From assembly GCF_001507555.1 (NCBI RefSeq), contig NZ_LQBO01000001.1, positions 1,178,001-1,242,000 on the forward strand: a stretch of 64,000 nt of DNA, written 5' to 3'. Source of the stretch: Thiomicrospira sp. XS5 (lineage in GTDB: Bacteria; Pseudomonadota; Gammaproteobacteria; Thiomicrospirales; Thiomicrospiraceae). Positions 35,072 to 55,571 of this stretch are shown here, in pieces; position 1 is the stretch's first letter; the number at the start of each line of letters is the position of its first letter. The position numbers were made by a program, and so were the translations under genes. The notes under the pieces were generated by a model that saw only the letters and a program-made list of their open reading frames with translations, was not told the origin of the DNA and made no database searches.

Positions 35072-35162
35072 GGTGGACTGGCTGAGTGGTTGAAGGCGGC
35101 GGTCTTGAAAACCGTTGTAGGTTAGTAGCCTACCTGGGGTTCGAATCCCTAGTCCACCGCCA
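35072..35162 (+). tRNA. tRNA-Ser (anticodon UGA)
   Basis: 91 bases with a 7-bp acceptor stem (GGTGGAC/GTCCACC), GCTGAGTGG D-arm, anticodon loop CTTGAAA giving TGA, a long variable arm typical of serine tRNAs, T-loop GGTTCGAATCC and an encoded CCA end. Confidence 0.97.
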
Positions 35163-35287: not shown

Positions 35288-35364
35288 GCGCCCGTAGCTC
35301 AACTGGATAGAGTACTCGGCTACGAACCGAGCGGTTAGGGGTTCGACTCCCTTCGGGCGCGCCA
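35288..35364 (+). tRNA. tRNA-Arg (anticodon ACG)
   Basis: 77 bases with a 7-bp acceptor stem GCGCCCG/CGGGCGC, anticodon loop CTACGAA giving ACG (read as ICG after deamination), T-loop GTTCGACTC and an encoded CCA. Confidence 0.97.
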
Positions 35365-50256: not shown

Positions 50257-52161
50257 TTAAATCAGTTTGCCGGCATAATCTTCGATGCCCGGATTATCGG
50301 CAATGCCTTTCAACGTCGGATGATTGATTTTTTTAAGCTTCATGTCCGAACGCTGGCCGCGTAAGTGGTCGGCGACCACATCCCAAATCAAACGACCGTC
50401 ACCGACTTCCTCCACTTGCCCCCAGCCGGCGACGGTGTAGGTTTTGTTCGGTTCAATCGGTGTGCCGTCGTCCAGTTGCATATGAGTAATACGCTGGCCG
50501 AGCGAGGCTTTCGGTTCGCAGGTGTAATCCATGCCGCCGAGTCGAACCATGTCACCGCCGGATTGCAGGTAAGGGTCTTTCTGGAAAATGTTCTCGCATA
50601 CGCCTTCCAAAGTGTCTTTGATTTGCGCACCGGTTAATTCGGCTTTGTAGGTTTCCCCATAGGTCATGGAGGTTTCATCCATCACGCGTTCCATGGTGAT
50701 GGTTTCGCCCGCCAGCACCGAGGTGCCCCAGCGCACACCTGCAGACATGGCGATTTGGGTGTCGTGTTCTTCGCGCAGGGCGTTGACGATGATTTGGTCC
50801 CAAGTGCCCATAAAGTTACCACGACGGTACAAGGTGTCTTCGGCCACAGCCAGTTCTTCACTGAGAATCTGTTCGTAGGTTTTGCCCAGGCGTTCCGGGT
50901 TATAGGCGTATTTCGGATTACGCGATTCGACAATCGACTTGGTGTACTGCGTTTGACGCAGATTGGTGATGAACTGGTCCACACCGGCGTCGGCGGCCAA
51001 TTCGTTGGAGAAGACCGGCAGCAAGCGATAATGCATGCCGCGCAACTTGCCGTTTTGGATGTCCAAGTCCATACAGCCGACGAACTTGCCGTTGGAACCG
51101 GCATTGGTGACTTGGCAGACATGGCCATCCGGGGCTTTCACCGGAATGGCTTTTGGAATGCCGTCGTGCGTGTGGCCGCCGAAAATGGCGTCGATGCCGT
51201 TGACGCGTGATGCCATCTTGATGTCCACGTCCATGCCGTTATGGGAAATCATAATGACCGCCGCGACTTTTTCGTTTTCACGGATGTGGTTGACGGTTTC
51301 CTGCATGGAGTCCTCCCGCAAACCGAAGGACCAATCCGGGAAGTTGGCGCGTGGGTTGGCGTTGGCGGTTCTCGGGAAGGCTTGGCCGATGACGGCGATA
51401 CGTTCGCCGTTTACCACCTTGACGGTGTAAGGCTTAAACGGCAGAGCGCTGTCTTCGTCGTATAACCCGATGCCACCGTGTTTTTCGGTCATATCGCGGT
51501 AGGCATCGCCGAACAGGGAATCTTCTTTGATGCGCATGTTCTGGGCCAGAAATTCGCCTTTGAATTTCTGAATATTGGTCAACACCTCGTCTTCATGGTA
51601 GGTGAACTCCCAATGCCCGGTCATGATGTCCACGCCGATCAGGTTTGACGCTTCCACCATGTCTTGACCGCGTGTCCAAAGCGCCGTGCCCGAACCGTGC
51701 CATAAATCTCCTCCATCCATTGTCAGGGTATTTTGCTGGCCACCCGCTTGCTCTCTGAGTTTGTCAAGTAGGGTTTTGAGATGGGCGAAGCCGCCCACCT
51801 TGCCATATTGTTCCGCCGCATCCTGAAAGTTCAGGAACGAAAACGCATGGGCCAACGGTGTGTTGTCGGCAATGTTCAGTTCTTTCAGGAGTTTGTGCCC
51901 GACCACGTGTGGCAGTTGGCCGTAAGCCGGACCGACGCCGAGATTGACGTTGGGTTCGCGGAAATAAACCGGTTTCAATTGCGCATGGGAGTCGGTGATG
52001 TGCAGAATACGAGCCGTGCCTTGCATGGGCACCTGATAGATGTCTTTTGAAATGGCCGTTCCTTTGGGTTGGGAAGACATCGCCAGGCCGGTGCCGGGTA
52101 ATAGGCCCGCGGCGGCGGCCATGGACATAACGTGTAAAAACTCGCGTCGATTCAGAGACAT
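50257..52161 (-). CDS. soxB: Thiosulfohydrolase SoxB
   Basis: The ATG at 52161 (634 residues) has AAGGAGAG 8 bases upstream. The protein then begins SLNRREFLHV, a twin-arginine signal. Metallophosphatase-type metal motifs include ITDSHAQL, MDGGDLWHGSG, SHNGMDVD and GGHTHDG, and a 5'-nucleotidase-like C-terminal domain follows. SoxB hydrolyses sulfate from SoxYZ-bound thiosulfate in the periplasm with two Mn ions. It stands alone without other sox genes. Its upstream region is filled by an inverted-repeat element. Confidence 0.97.
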   Translation of the reverse strand: MSLNRREFLHVMSMAAAAGLLPGTGLAMSSQPKGTAISKDIYQVPMQGTARILHITDSHAQLKPVYFREPNVNLGVGPAYGQLPHVVGHKLLKELNIADNTPLAHAFSFLNFQDAAEQYGKVGGFAHLKTLLDKLREQAGGQQNTLTMDGGDLWHGSGTALWTRGQDMVEASNLIGVDIMTGHWEFTYHEDEVLTNIQKFKGEFLAQNMRIKEDSLFGDAYRDMTEKHGGIGLYDEDSALPFKPYTVKVVNGERIAVIGQAFPRTANANPRANFPDWSFGLREDSMQETVNHIRENEKVAAVIMISHNGMDVDIKMASRVNGIDAIFGGHTHDGIPKAIPVKAPDGHVCQVTNAGSNGKFVGCMDLDIQNGKLRGMHYRLLPVFSNELAADAGVDQFITNLRQTQYTKSIVESRNPKYAYNPERLGKTYEQILSEELAVAEDTLYRRGNFMGTWDQIIVNALREEHDTQIAMSAGVRWGTSVLAGETITMERVMDETSMTYGETYKAELTGAQIKDTLEGVCENIFQKDPYLQSGGDMVRLGGMDYTCEPKASLGQRITHMQLDDGTPIEPNKTYTVAGWGQVEEVGDGRLIWDVVADHLRGQRSDMKLKKINHPTLKGIADNPGIEDYAGKLI

Positions 52162-52181
52162 GGATTGACTCTCCTTTGTTG

Positions 52182-52447
52182 AGGGCAATTCGGTTAACCT
52201 TTAGTCGATTCTGGCAACGCCAAATTCGTCAGATCAAGGCGTGAAGCTGCAGGAATGTCTAGACCTTGCAAGACTTCACAACGTGGAGCTGACCGAATTT
52301 GGCTAAGCCCCTTCGGGCGGAACTAGAAGACTACATCTTCGTTGTTGTGACTCTTGTCCTTAGGGTAACTAAGGTCAGCGAGCCACGCCTAGAATATGCA
52401 GTCTTTTAGTTCCGCAGAATTTCACTAAAGATTAATCGAGTTGCCCT
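52182..52447. mobile_element. MITE-like element with 23-24 bp terminal inverted repeats in the soxB upstream region
   Basis: The ends 52183-52205 and 52424-52446 are inverted repeats matching at 20 of 23 positions, extendable by one base each side. Inside are three further inverted repeats: 52219-52232 with 52289-52303 (one inserted base), the GCCC-CTTC-GGGC hairpin at 52307-52318, and 52317-52332 with 52400-52415 (one mismatch). The last encloses CCTTAG-GGTAA-CTAAGG. There is no ORF for a transposase. The left end starts only 5 bases beyond the soxB Shine-Dalgarno. No clear target duplication is visible. A conserved structured RNA or regulatory leader is the alternative. Confidence 0.65.
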
Positions 52448-52584
52448 TTAATATTCACTTATTGGGTTTGAAACTCAAAACCAGTTTACGAATTTCTCGT
52501 GAAAACCATATTGGGACGGTTCCTAAATCGATTAGGGTTTTCCCTAAGTTTTTGAAGATTGAGCCATTTTGGGTGGGAAAACGA
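52448..52584. other. AT-rich spacer between the inverted-repeat element and the response regulator gene
   Basis: No gene is seen here. A soxB promoter could lie in this stretch or inside the element, but I cannot assign boxes confidently. Confidence 0.4.
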
Positions 52585-53214
52585 TTAGCTTTCCGATGAT
52601 GGGACGGGGTGGTCTTTACCGGCTTCGATGGCGAGTCGAACCAGTTCGGTGACGGTTTTGACGCCGAGTTTCGACATCAGGTTCGCACGATGCACTTCGA
52701 TGGTTTTGATGCTCAGGCACAGTTGGTCGGCGATGATTTTATTGGGGTGACCTTGCAGGACGCCGGTCAATACTTGGGATTCGCGTTTGGAGAGCTGTTC
52801 GAAGCGGTTTTGCAAGGCATCGGTCTTTTCCTGATGTTTCTGCAAATCGTCGTAATGGTGAATCGCCAGTTGGATACGTTCCAGCATGTGTTGGTCGTTA
52901 TAGGGTTTTTCGATGAAGTCGAAGGCGCCTTCTTTCATGGCGCGAATCGCCATCGGCACGTCGGCGTGGCCGGTGACGATGATGACCGGAAAATCCGGAT
53001 CGATGTGTTTGATGGATTGATGCAGTTCCATGCCGTTCAGGCCGGGCATTCGTACGTCGAGCACCACGCAACCGGGCAGGCCTGGTGAAAATGCGTCTAA
53101 AAAAGCCTGACCGTTTTCATACAGGCGGGTTTGCAGGTTGACCGATTCCAGCAACCATTCCAACGACTCCCGTACCAGACGGTCGTCGTCCACAACATAC
53201 ACGCAAGGTTCCAT
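52585..53214 (-). CDS. FixJ/TtrR-type response regulator
   Basis: The ATG at 53214 (209 residues) overlaps the kinase stop as ATGA, and the protein starts MEPCVYVVDDD. The receiver domain has phosphoacceptor D53 (CVVLDVRMPG), with TGHADVPMAIRAMKEGAFDFIEKP. A LuxR-type helix-turn-helix follows (LSKRESQVLTGVLQGHPNKIIADQLCLSIKTIEVHRANLMSKL). It is encoded with a sensor kinase of the PhnD-like periplasmic type and next to soxB. Control of thiosulfate or tetrathionate genes is inferred. The gene contains a 9-of-10 palindrome copy at 53076-53085. Confidence 0.9.
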   Translation of the reverse strand: MEPCVYVVDDDRLVRESLEWLLESVNLQTRLYENGQAFLDAFSPGLPGCVVLDVRMPGLNGMELHQSIKHIDPDFPVIIVTGHADVPMAIRAMKEGAFDFIEKPYNDQHMLERIQLAIHHYDDLQKHQEKTDALQNRFEQLSKRESQVLTGVLQGHPNKIIADQLCLSIKTIEVHRANLMSKLGVKTVTELVRLAIEAGKDHPVPSSES

Positions 53215-55571
53215 CACGCGTTTTCCTCCGAAGTGTTTTTGTGAGCCTTCCCGGCTTCGCACAAGGGTAATTCAAACATAAATTGCGCGCCTTCATGGGT
53301 GTTGCAGACGTGCAATTGGCCGTGGTGCGCCTCGACAATGCTGCGGCAAATCGCCAGCCCCAGACCCATGCCGTCGGATTTCGAGGAATGGAAGGCATCG
53401 AAAACATGGGGCAACTCCTTTTCCGGAATACCGGGGCCGGTGTCGGACACCAGAATGCGCGCGGTATCGGTTTGAGGATGAATGTCAACCGATACGCAGC
53501 CGCTTTCGTCGCACGCATCAATGGCGTTGCGAATCAAATTCAGCAAGACCTGTTCGATTTGAACCGGGTCCCCGACGACACAGACATCGCCCTGCAAGGA
53601 CGGCGGAATCAATGTCACGGCATGTTGCTTGGCTTCCGAGTCCAGCAGTGACAACACGCGTTTCAAAGTGGCATTGAGTTGGAAAGCTTCTTGGCGCCGT
53701 GCGCCGGTTTGCACGAATTCGCGCAGACGACGGATGATGTTGGTGGCGCGATCAAGGCTTTCCAAAGACCGGGTCAGGCCGGTTTTGAGGTGTGACGGTT
53801 GGCTGTCATCCAAGCGTCTCAGGCTACCGCTGATGTAATTGGTGGCGGCGGTCAGCGGTTGGTTGATTTCATGCGCCAGACCGGAAGCCATTTCACCGAC
53901 GGTGAACAGGCGGGTGACTTTGCCGAGTTGGGTGCGATATTTGTCATGCTCGGTTTCGATGTCCTGACGCTCGATGCTGGAGCCGATCCATTGGGTGATG
54001 AGGCGCAATAACTCTTCGTCCACTTCGGTCAGTTGCCATTGTGCGATGTTTTGCCCCACGAACACCAGCACGCAGTGCGGTTGACCGTTGACCTGTACGG
54101 TGAAAGTGACGACCTGGCCGGCGCAAGGCGTGTCGGAAAATTGCAGAATGGCTTGGCTTTTGAATTCCGACAAGTGACTTTCCAGACATTGTTTCAGTTT
54201 GGATTCTTCGGGCATATCCCCATCGGAAACGCACAACGACAGCGCCGGGTGTGGGCCGTCGGGCAGCTTGTACAAAAACGCGGCGTCCATGCGGAAATGG
54301 CGACGTGCTAATTGAATCAAGCGCAACAGTTTTTCCGATTGGGGGAGACGAGTGTCGACGGAAATTTCGTACACCCCTTGCAGCGCGGCGCGGCTGCGAC
54401 GTAATGTATCTTCCGCCTTTTCCCGGGCTTCGATGTCTTGTTCCAGCGCCTGGTTGACTTGCGAGAGTTCCACGGTGCGCTCGGCGACTTCTTTTTCCAG
54501 GTTGTCGCGGTGTTTGGCGAGTTCGGACTGGGAAACCGCCAGTTTCCGGTTGATGCGGCTCATGCGCGCGGAAAAGGCCGACAACATCAGAATCAACACC
54601 ACAATCAAGCCGACGGCGAGGCCATGTTCCTGCAAGATGGCCTTGAGACTGATCTGTTTGCTCGGTTCGTAAGGTGGCAGTTTCAGGGCGCGAAGCAAGC
54701 CATGCACGGTGGTGAAGTCTTCGGCGCGGGTCCAGCCGTAGTGCGGGTTATAGGTACCGGGCGCGGTGCTTTTCGGCATGGCTTGCAGGGTACGGGAAAC
54801 CTGGCGAGCCAGCGCAATGTCGGTGTGTGCCAATCGAATCATCGACCATTCCGGATAGAGAATGCTGCTGTGCAGCAACGGGTAAGGGCCGGTGTGCTGT
54901 GGGTGGATGACTTTGATTTGGTTGGCGGGCAGTTGGTTTTGGTCCAACAGCGACTCGATCAAACCGGAACGGATAATGCCGATATCGGCTTCTTCATTGA
55001 TGATAGCGCGAATAATCGCTTCCTGAGACCCGTTGGTGAACAGCAGGTTGAAAAAGTCTTTTTTGGGCGCGATGCCGGCCAGTTGCAGTTCTCGCCAGAT
55101 CATTTGATAGCCGCCGAATTCGGACGGCGACACCGCCATCACGCTTTGGCCTTTCAGGTCGGATAGGCGTTTCAGATCATTGCGGTCGGCGCGGGTGATG
55201 AGTGCCGCACCGAAATGACTGTAAGGCCGGGTCTCGTAGCGGGTTTGCAGCGTGGCGATGGGGTGGACATCCTCGGTTTTCTCCAGTGCGACGATTTGCG
55301 ACGGATTGGTGATGGCGAAATCGAGCTGTTGTTTGTTAATGGCATGGGTCAGGCATTCCGGCCCCATGGGTTTGATGACGAATTGGTGGCTGGGAATTTC
55401 TTTGGAAAGCCATTGTGCGGTTTTCGCCCAAAAGGCTTTGTCGGCTTCGGTATGGCGCAAATTCAACACGCCGATGTCGACGATGTTGGCCCGCACGGCA
55501 GACAACGGCATCAACAGGGTGATGACGAATAACCCGATTGAAATACGTAATGGAAAGGGAGACTGGAGCAA
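53214..55571 (-). CDS. Sensor histidine kinase with periplasmic PhnD-like binding domain (TtrS/ThsS-like)
   Basis: The 785-residue protein has a signal/anchor at the N-terminus. A periplasmic substrate-binding-type domain (about 30-310: IGVLNLRH..., FAITNPSQIVALE, KGQSVMAVSPSEFGGYQMIWREL, ADIGIIRSGLIESLL) is followed by a membrane helix near 325-345, a coiled coil and a GAF-like region (about 420-540). The HisKA domain has His567 (ASGLAHEINQPLTAATNYI), and a HATPase_c domain follows. This layout matches tetrathionate (TtrS) and thiosulfate (ThsS) sensors. The neighbouring soxB makes a sulfur oxyanion the likely ligand. Confidence 0.9.
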   Translation of the reverse strand: MLQSPFPLRISIGLFVITLLMPLSAVRANIVDIGVLNLRHTEADKAFWAKTAQWLSKEIPSHQFVIKPMGPECLTHAINKQQLDFAITNPSQIVALEKTEDVHPIATLQTRYETRPYSHFGAALITRADRNDLKRLSDLKGQSVMAVSPSEFGGYQMIWRELQLAGIAPKKDFFNLLFTNGSQEAIIRAIINEEADIGIIRSGLIESLLDQNQLPANQIKVIHPQHTGPYPLLHSSILYPEWSMIRLAHTDIALARQVSRTLQAMPKSTAPGTYNPHYGWTRAEDFTTVHGLLRALKLPPYEPSKQISLKAILQEHGLAVGLIVVLILMLSAFSARMSRINRKLAVSQSELAKHRDNLEKEVAERTVELSQVNQALEQDIEAREKAEDTLRRSRAALQGVYEISVDTRLPQSEKLLRLIQLARRHFRMDAAFLYKLPDGPHPALSLCVSDGDMPEESKLKQCLESHLSEFKSQAILQFSDTPCAGQVVTFTVQVNGQPHCVLVFVGQNIAQWQLTEVDEELLRLITQWIGSSIERQDIETEHDKYRTQLGKVTRLFTVGEMASGLAHEINQPLTAATNYISGSLRRLDDSQPSHLKTGLTRSLESLDRATNIIRRLREFVQTGARRQEAFQLNATLKRVLSLLDSEAKQHAVTLIPPSLQGDVCVVGDPVQIEQVLLNLIRNAIDACDESGCVSVDIHPQTDTARILVSDTGPGIPEKELPHVFDAFHSSKSDGMGLGLAICRSIVEAHHGQLHVCNTHEGAQFMFELPLCEAGKAHKNTSEENA

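Follow-up and report, generated by a model that had tools for sequence, protein, structure and literature searches.

MITEs are usually regarded as decayed transposons whose interior is of no importance. The transcripts of the Correia (NEMIS) elements of Neisseria fold and are cut by RNase III (PMC10969869, PMC2229807), and from their description in these sources they can be likened, as MITEs with folding RNAs, to the element treated here; their folding arms, however, are the terminal inverted repeats (TIRs), where they are cut, whereas the element upstream of soxB contains an internal hairpin with fixed loops that is common to elements with different TIRs. The CIR repeats of Caulobacter likewise consist of two long inverted-repeat arms and a linker and have a phylogenetically conserved structure, but they are alphaproteobacterial, about 110 bp long and carry a conserved GANTC in the terminal loop, and where PMC2229807 deals with them an exchange of TIRs is not described. 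QMITE1 and QMITE2 of Coxiella burnetii, which are 150-400 bp long, are MITEs from the Gammaproteobacteria and a source of small RNAs; according to the parts of PMC5896051 that concern them, QMITE1 is reportedly without orthologues elsewhere and has 2-4 bp repeats, and the repeats of QMITE2 measure 7-11 nt and are accompanied by a GTAG REP. REPINs, as they have been described, likewise form an inverted hairpin pair with many dispersed copies; REPs, however, are 20-40 bp long with GTAG or CGTC tags in the account of PMC3733652, whereas the hairpins of the module described below measure about 67-95 nt and lie between TIRs. Folded MITEs, RNase III-cut Correia transcripts and MITE-derived small RNAs are thus on record in the consulted parts of PMC5896051, PMC4853749, PMC10969869 and PMC2229807, and in the mainly open literature we found no description of a module common to several MITE families; an earlier one is possible.

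The window, i.e. the whole stretch of 64,000 nucleotides of Thiomicrospira sp. XS5 that was analysed, contains upstream of soxB an element of 264 nt with 24-nt TIRs and three internal hairpins (H1, H2 and H3; Table 1). The arms of the outer repeat (52182-52205 and 52424-52447) are 24 nt long and 88% complementary, and the GGG...CCC limits of the element lie one base inside the ends noted earlier on either side. The foot of H1 (52219-52228/52294-52303) is 100% complementary, H2 has the form GCCC-loop-GGGC, is visible in the letters and is paired in the predicted fold, and the arms of H3 (52317-52340/52392-52415) are 88% complementary. Folding energies lay far below those of shuffled sequences (z of -11.7 on the + strand and -10.5 on the - strand), and 0 of 200 shuffles were as low on either strand. 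According to the ORF list of the window, no ORF of at least 60 aa lies within the element, the left end of which is 5 nt from the soxB Shine-Dalgarno sequence as we read it. The terminal inverted repeats, the three inner inverted repeats, the lack of coding capacity and the left end abutting the ribosome-binding site of soxB, all of which had been described in an earlier reading of the sequence only, could thus be confirmed.

Table 1 Features in and around the MITE upstream of soxB. Positions refer to the window; the + orientation of the MITE is defined by H1 on the + strand.
Feature	Position	Strand	Basis
soxB	50257..52161	-	ORF list; TIGR04486
soxB Shine-Dalgarno-like AAAGGAGA	52170..52177	-	seen in letters
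Left flank TTGA	52179..52182	.	duplication table
MITE, 264 nt	52183..52446	+	TIRs, fold, genome copies, empty orthologous sites
Left TIR, type A, GGGCACCTCGATTAACC-like, diverged	52183..52206	+	TIR comparison
Hairpin 1 (H1), module in + sense	52219..52303	+	R3 match 52228-52294, 71.0 bits, E 9.4e-17
Hairpin 2 (H2), GC hairpin joining both modules	52307..52318	.	sequence and fold
Hairpin 3 (H3), module in - sense	52319..52413	-	R3 match 52399-52332, 64.8 bits, E 4.4e-15
Right TIR	52424..52446	-	TIR comparison
Right flank TTTA	52447..52450	.	duplication table
Palindrome TTAGGGTTTTCCCTAA	52532..52547	.	half-sites kept in five genomes; weak terminator-like score on +
Response regulator, receiver and LuxR-type domain	52585..53262	-	TtrR/FixJ-like, under curated cut-offs
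Sensor kinase, phosphonate-binding-type sensor domain	53214..55571	-	TtrS-like, under curated cut-off

Among the Rfam 15 covariance models, no family overlaps the module in the window, where two tRNA genes (35072-35159 and 35288-35361) are the sole Rfam matches. Elsewhere, the module was unmatched in 10 copies and 20 loci at the gathering level and in 5 loci at E values up to 1; the weak matches in L198 (Phe_leader and RNAI, E 0.22-0.84) are under the gathering scores and at least about 900 nt away from the module. A group II intron, a HEARO/omega RNA and other catalogued RNAs were dropped as identities since Rfam is blank at the module, and that of an integron attC site was set aside solely on the basis of the R-box rule.

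The element upstream of soxB is a MITE. Its own genome (G000, 2.63 Mb) holds 12 full copies, of which BLAST, besides one fragment, identified 10 as near-full and covariance models added two diverged ones (L198 and L199); the copies elsewhere in G000 are 83-77% identical to the one at soxB. The covariance models also revealed single-hairpin elements (L200, L201 and L218) and a degenerate copy (L202) in this genome. BLAST matches were present in 6 of the 11 genomes of the genus and in 25 of the 62 genomes of the order, which belong to 5 of its 7 genera. Six copies in relatives (L072, L074, L102, L113, L115 and L118) match the core in its left half only, ending at 119-124 near the GC hairpin, which could represent either a truncation or another right half. 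A recognisable TIR was found at both ends in 74 of 77 distinct full copies, and the other three, which have one end without a recognisable TIR, were left out of the analysis of target sites. An exact 4-bp target duplication flanks 35 of the 74 copies, compared with a mean of 4.7 and a maximum of 10 for shuffled pairs, and duplications of 2, 3 and 5 bp were found in 5, 4 and 1 copies, respectively, which is near the shuffled means. Shifting both ends by one base gave 18 and 13 exact duplications, because the base adjoining the TIR often pairs too. The sequence TTAN accounts for 21 of the 35 exact duplications and resembles YTAR, the target of IS5. At soxB itself (L001), the flanks form an imperfect 4-bp duplication with 3 of 4 bases in common and no exact one. 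Near another copy (L003:1503-1765), a c-di-GMP-I-GGC riboswitch (L003:1837-1911, 61.9 bits) is located at a distance of about 70 nt.

The ends point to the family of the transposon partner. An IS5-family element in another genome of the order (G059) encodes a transposase that matches NF033581 with 271.5 bits (cut-off 140), and its right end GGGAACCTCGAATAACCC and left end GGGAACCTCGAATAACTT share 17 and 15 of 18 bases, respectively, with the best MITE end, whereas 0 of the 1199 18-mers in its interior reach 14 of 18. Its flanks, TTAT and ATAA, form no exact 4-bp duplication. Relatives of this transposase occur in 9 of the 62 genomes of the order, and G000 gave no match to PF01609, PF05598 or the G059-type transposase. 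Paired ends of type A or D with up to 4 mismatches were found at just 6 of the 30 transposase loci scanned, most of which have other ends. The G059 element, with its ends nearly those of the MITE, differs from the MITE in coding for a transposase. An R3 search (R3 is the covariance model introduced below) detected the module inside an insertion sequence at 0 of 43 transposase loci and gave two weak matches of 29.1 bits, which represent one place in two overlapping loci and sit about 1.2 kb from the transposase gene. It follows that the module goes with the MITEs and not with the IS5-type transposons examined. These family-level facts show the element to be a non-autonomous IS5-type MITE, and an IS5-family transposase, now undetected in G000, would have acted in trans to mobilise the copy at the soxB site. 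The description as MITE-like in the sequence-only reading is borne out by the dispersed copies, the target duplications, the IS5-family ends and the orthologous sites lacking an insertion (see below); the search for other copies that it proposed found them both in the genome and in relatives, and neither of the two outcomes it had set against a mobile element, i.e. absence of a second copy or conservation only upstream of soxB in distant species, was observed.

We then asked how the interior of the element changes between copies, using an alignment (A1) of 48 of the 74 copies with TIRs, for which 21 of the 74 (more than 93% alike) and subsequently 5 of the remaining 53 (long insertions) were left out; before A2 and A3, 8 of the 48 were left out (some for indels, one as a near-duplicate of the copy in the window, and two more). 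Changes on both sides were seen in 58 of the 80 predicted pairs, the proportion of paired cells was 94.1% compared with 77.5% after shuffling and no more than 50.6% when the partners were slid, and covariation scored 0.460 vs 0.163. The outer helix of A1 is the TIR, where covariation partly reflects TIR subtypes; within the core, both partners have changed in 35 of 45 pairs of the inner helices (2-6 and 9) and in 0 of 4 pairs of H2. These data show that the core folds under selection.

When a Watson-Crick pair turns into G.T on the + strand, the - strand shows A.C in its place, and changes to G.T and to A.C are distributed differently over the hairpins. Reconstructed by parsimony on the tree of A1, the changes to G.T and A.C amount to 34:8 in H1, 24:56 in H3 and 40:29 in the TIR (Fisher p 1.1e-7 for the difference between H1 and H3). 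Cell counts in the 42 rows of types A and B, from which columns with a common wobble were excluded, agree (43:6 in H1, 21:65 in H3). Most of the H1 and H3 pairs were taken from the fold of the + strand, a bias that favours the result for H1 and opposes that for H3. H1 thus appears to be kept as a fold of the + strand and H3 as one of the - strand, and the opposite asymmetry indicates that selection acts on each hairpin in its own sense as a single-stranded fold.

Read in their own senses, H1 and H3 both have the form UC-WAGGC-stem-loop-stem-AAC..GA. Covariance models of H1 (R1) and H3 (R2) were run on the 10 BLAST copies of G000: R1 matches H3 on the - strand only (5 of 5 cross-matches, in 5 of 10 elements, 23.6-29.8 bits), and R2 matches H1 on the + strand only (7 of 7 cross-matches, in 7 of 10 elements, 27.5-41.6 bits). 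R1 and R2 also match the reverse strands of their own hairpins with similar scores, as hairpins may, and it is therefore the rule of orientation, and not the score, that carries the argument. As judged from this rule, H1 and H3 are one hairpin in opposite orientation.

The single-stranded form is probably RNA, which is the simplest candidate. Alternatively, the hairpins could act as single-stranded DNA or as extruded cruciforms that are bound by protein during replication or transposition, as in REPINs, which the inverted hairpin pair resembles in the available description. On each DNA strand, one hairpin would be in sense, the wobble asymmetry fits single-stranded DNA as well as RNA, and the context is mobile. 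TIRs with 4-bp duplications, however, are expected of a DDE and not of a tyrosine transposase, and neither a GTAG nor a CGTC tag is conserved at the feet of the consensus H1 and H3 hairpins; we therefore consider a function as DNA unlikely.

To define the hairpin module, 46 hairpins were aligned with a structure drawn by hand (A4). The module reads 5' UC-WAGGC-stem-GCAGG ... CAAG-stem-AAC..GA 3', and two asymmetric internal loops flank a covarying stem of about 6 bp in it. Both partners change in 17 of 17 pairs, 90.1% of the cells are paired compared with 58.6% after shuffling, and the covariation is 0.795 vs 0.221; pairs 32-43 and 8-67 fail in 22 and 15 of the 46 rows, respectively. Closely related copies make up about half of A4. 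Loop 1 is near-invariant (1.74-2.0 bits in the AGGC columns and 1.85-2.0 bits in AAC, compared with a mean of 0.47 bits in stem A), and although 7 rows had been found with a fixed-loop pattern and so are biased towards loop conservation, the 31 H1 and H3 rows, which are copies from A1, had not been found in this way. The second loop is weakly conserved (0.72 and 0.99 bits), partly because the register shifts between types of hairpin. By eye, both loops appear as one 2x3 loop (CAAG / CGCAG) that occurs twice in opposite directions on either side of stem A, and the approximate dyad symmetry of this stem would fit a dimeric binding protein.

A pattern with fixed loops matched 6 of 369 genomes of the class, with no match of the reversed control among the matches listed, and gave no match in the own genome; it was thus too strict, and the covariance model R3 took its place. 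At E <=0.001, R3 detected the module in 123 of the 369 gammaproteobacterial genomes, representing 97 of 272 genera, or in 116 genomes of the class if the 7 that supplied rows of the model are left aside. Across the phylum, 93 of 398 genomes had a match, i.e. 47 of the own class and 46 others, of which 42 are small genomes of one family (f207); the class and phylum samples overlap. Copy numbers per genome are lower bounds, as the best 13-14 candidates were scored. Similarity searches of plasmids, phages and E. coli genomes and pattern scans of viral contigs found nothing. Within the window, the third-best R3 match (267-309, - strand, 18.9 bits, E 0.0086) is perhaps due to chance.

R3 was further applied to 54 loci, which are the best-scoring ones of the earlier searches and not a random sample, and in which a few places are represented twice. 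A pair of matches separated by about 100 nt was present in 19 of the 54 loci, which correspond to 18 places (L222/L246, which are one place, L225, L226, L236, L240, L241, L248, L250, L252, L253, L255, L259, L260, L266, L270, L281, L282 and L283), and in 19 of 19 the second match is found on the opposite strand, downstream of the first. Most elements in which one hairpin was detected measure 160-185 nt, compared with 257-283 nt for most of those with two; five loci with one detected match (L238, L256, L262, L277 and L280) are 251-285 nt long and may contain a second, unrecognised hairpin. In the genome of L236, a distance of about 700 nt separates a single-hairpin element from a double-hairpin one whose ends are different. 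Terminal repeats were read in 47 rows, with none in L268, L274 and L276 and repeats that are implausible by eye in L226, L254, L258, L267 and L282; the ends of L226 and L254 were taken from other outputs. At a threshold of 66%, compared with a 99% point of 57% and a maximum of 74% for shuffled TIR pairs, the 32 TIR strings, most of them taken from these rows, fall into 19 clusters, six with at least two members and 13 single. About 19 kinds of TIR thus enclose the module, which often occurs as an inverted pair.

These observations also bear on the possibility that the element is an ordinary MITE without a specific partner, in which gene conversion, or selection against arms that do not pair, maintains the pairing. 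Bacterial MITEs generally fold into stable stem-loops, as is stated in the consulted parts of PMC10969869 and PMC2229807, but here the changes in the stems are compensatory and loop 1 is near-invariant, H1 and H3 prefer wobble on opposite strands, and the same hairpin lies between many kinds of TIR; this explanation appears to us improbable, and slightly more so than a function as DNA.

The explanation that we favour, with moderate confidence, is an orientation-independent RNA module within an IS5-type MITE, which is carried by many MITE families and recruits a host factor. The core is a conserved module and not the remnant of a transposon, consisting of one hairpin present twice in inverted orientation with a GC hairpin in between. 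If RNA is the active form, each read-through transcript, whichever strand it is made from, would carry exactly one hairpin in sense, so that the orientation of the element would be indifferent and the inverted pair would let it work either way. The loops could be read by a common host protein, putatively an RNA-binding protein or a ribonuclease, which would process or shield the transcripts that run through the insertion and thereby make insertions tolerated. The same module is present in many MITEs with different ends. In G000, 14 of 15 elements overlap no ORF predicted by a crude ORF finder, and of the nine located between co-directional genes (L001-L006, L009, L199 and L200, counted without divergent-gene sites) five have the same sense as the genes and four the opposite one, a split that fits orientation independence and is no proof of it. 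More tentatively, and as a possibility that we rate below the former, the module could be a selfish RNA device exchanged among MITE families independently of the transposase by way of a common host RNA-binding factor, in the Gammaproteobacteria and one further proteobacterial family.

With regard to the soxB locus, SoxB was identified by TIGR04486 (738.6 bits, cut-off 550); its ATG at 52161 is our choice, the listed ORF beginning with TTG at 52188. The palindrome that adjoins the regulator gene is a possible binding site of this response regulator, and the element separates it from soxB. The comparison of soxB upstream regions that had been proposed revealed the insertion in G000 and in G010 of the same genus and its absence from the intergenic region between soxB and the regulator in G003, G004 and G008, i.e. 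at 3 of 3 comparable sites; within the stretch compared, no such site was seen in the other six genomes of the genus. The copies of the element in G000 and G010 are identical at 246 of 253 positions with 11 gap positions, the right flanks at 134 of 138, and stretches of the regulator and of soxB at 601 of 616 and 467 of 478, respectively; the element thus changes as fast as its flanks, which gives no sign of extra constraint at soxB. In the copy of G010, an 11-nt deletion takes one arm of the apical stem of H3, the hairpin in the sense of soxB. A cis-regulatory RNA belonging to soxB, which the position next to the Shine-Dalgarno sequence and the retention in two genomes might suggest, is refuted as the origin of the element and very unlikely, given the three soxB loci without it, the copies beside other genes, the blank in Rfam and the lack of extra constraint. 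A second soxB with about 80% identity is located at G000:C1:2320245-2322158 and likewise in G003, G004, G008 and G010, and in the matches seen the regulator pair is not alongside it.

The expected influence of the element on thiosulfate oxidation lacks support: we found no sigma-70-like site in 52100-52700, and to this are added the change at the rate of the flanks and the deletion in H3 of G010; an effect of the element on soxB is thus unproven. As the insertion is located between the palindrome and the Shine-Dalgarno sequence, the mRNA of soxB may carry the element as a leader, which would hold H3 in sense.

In this group of MITEs, it is the interior that is conserved and the ends that vary. 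If the module binds a host factor, this would explain the persistence of such MITEs in transcribed intergenic DNA.
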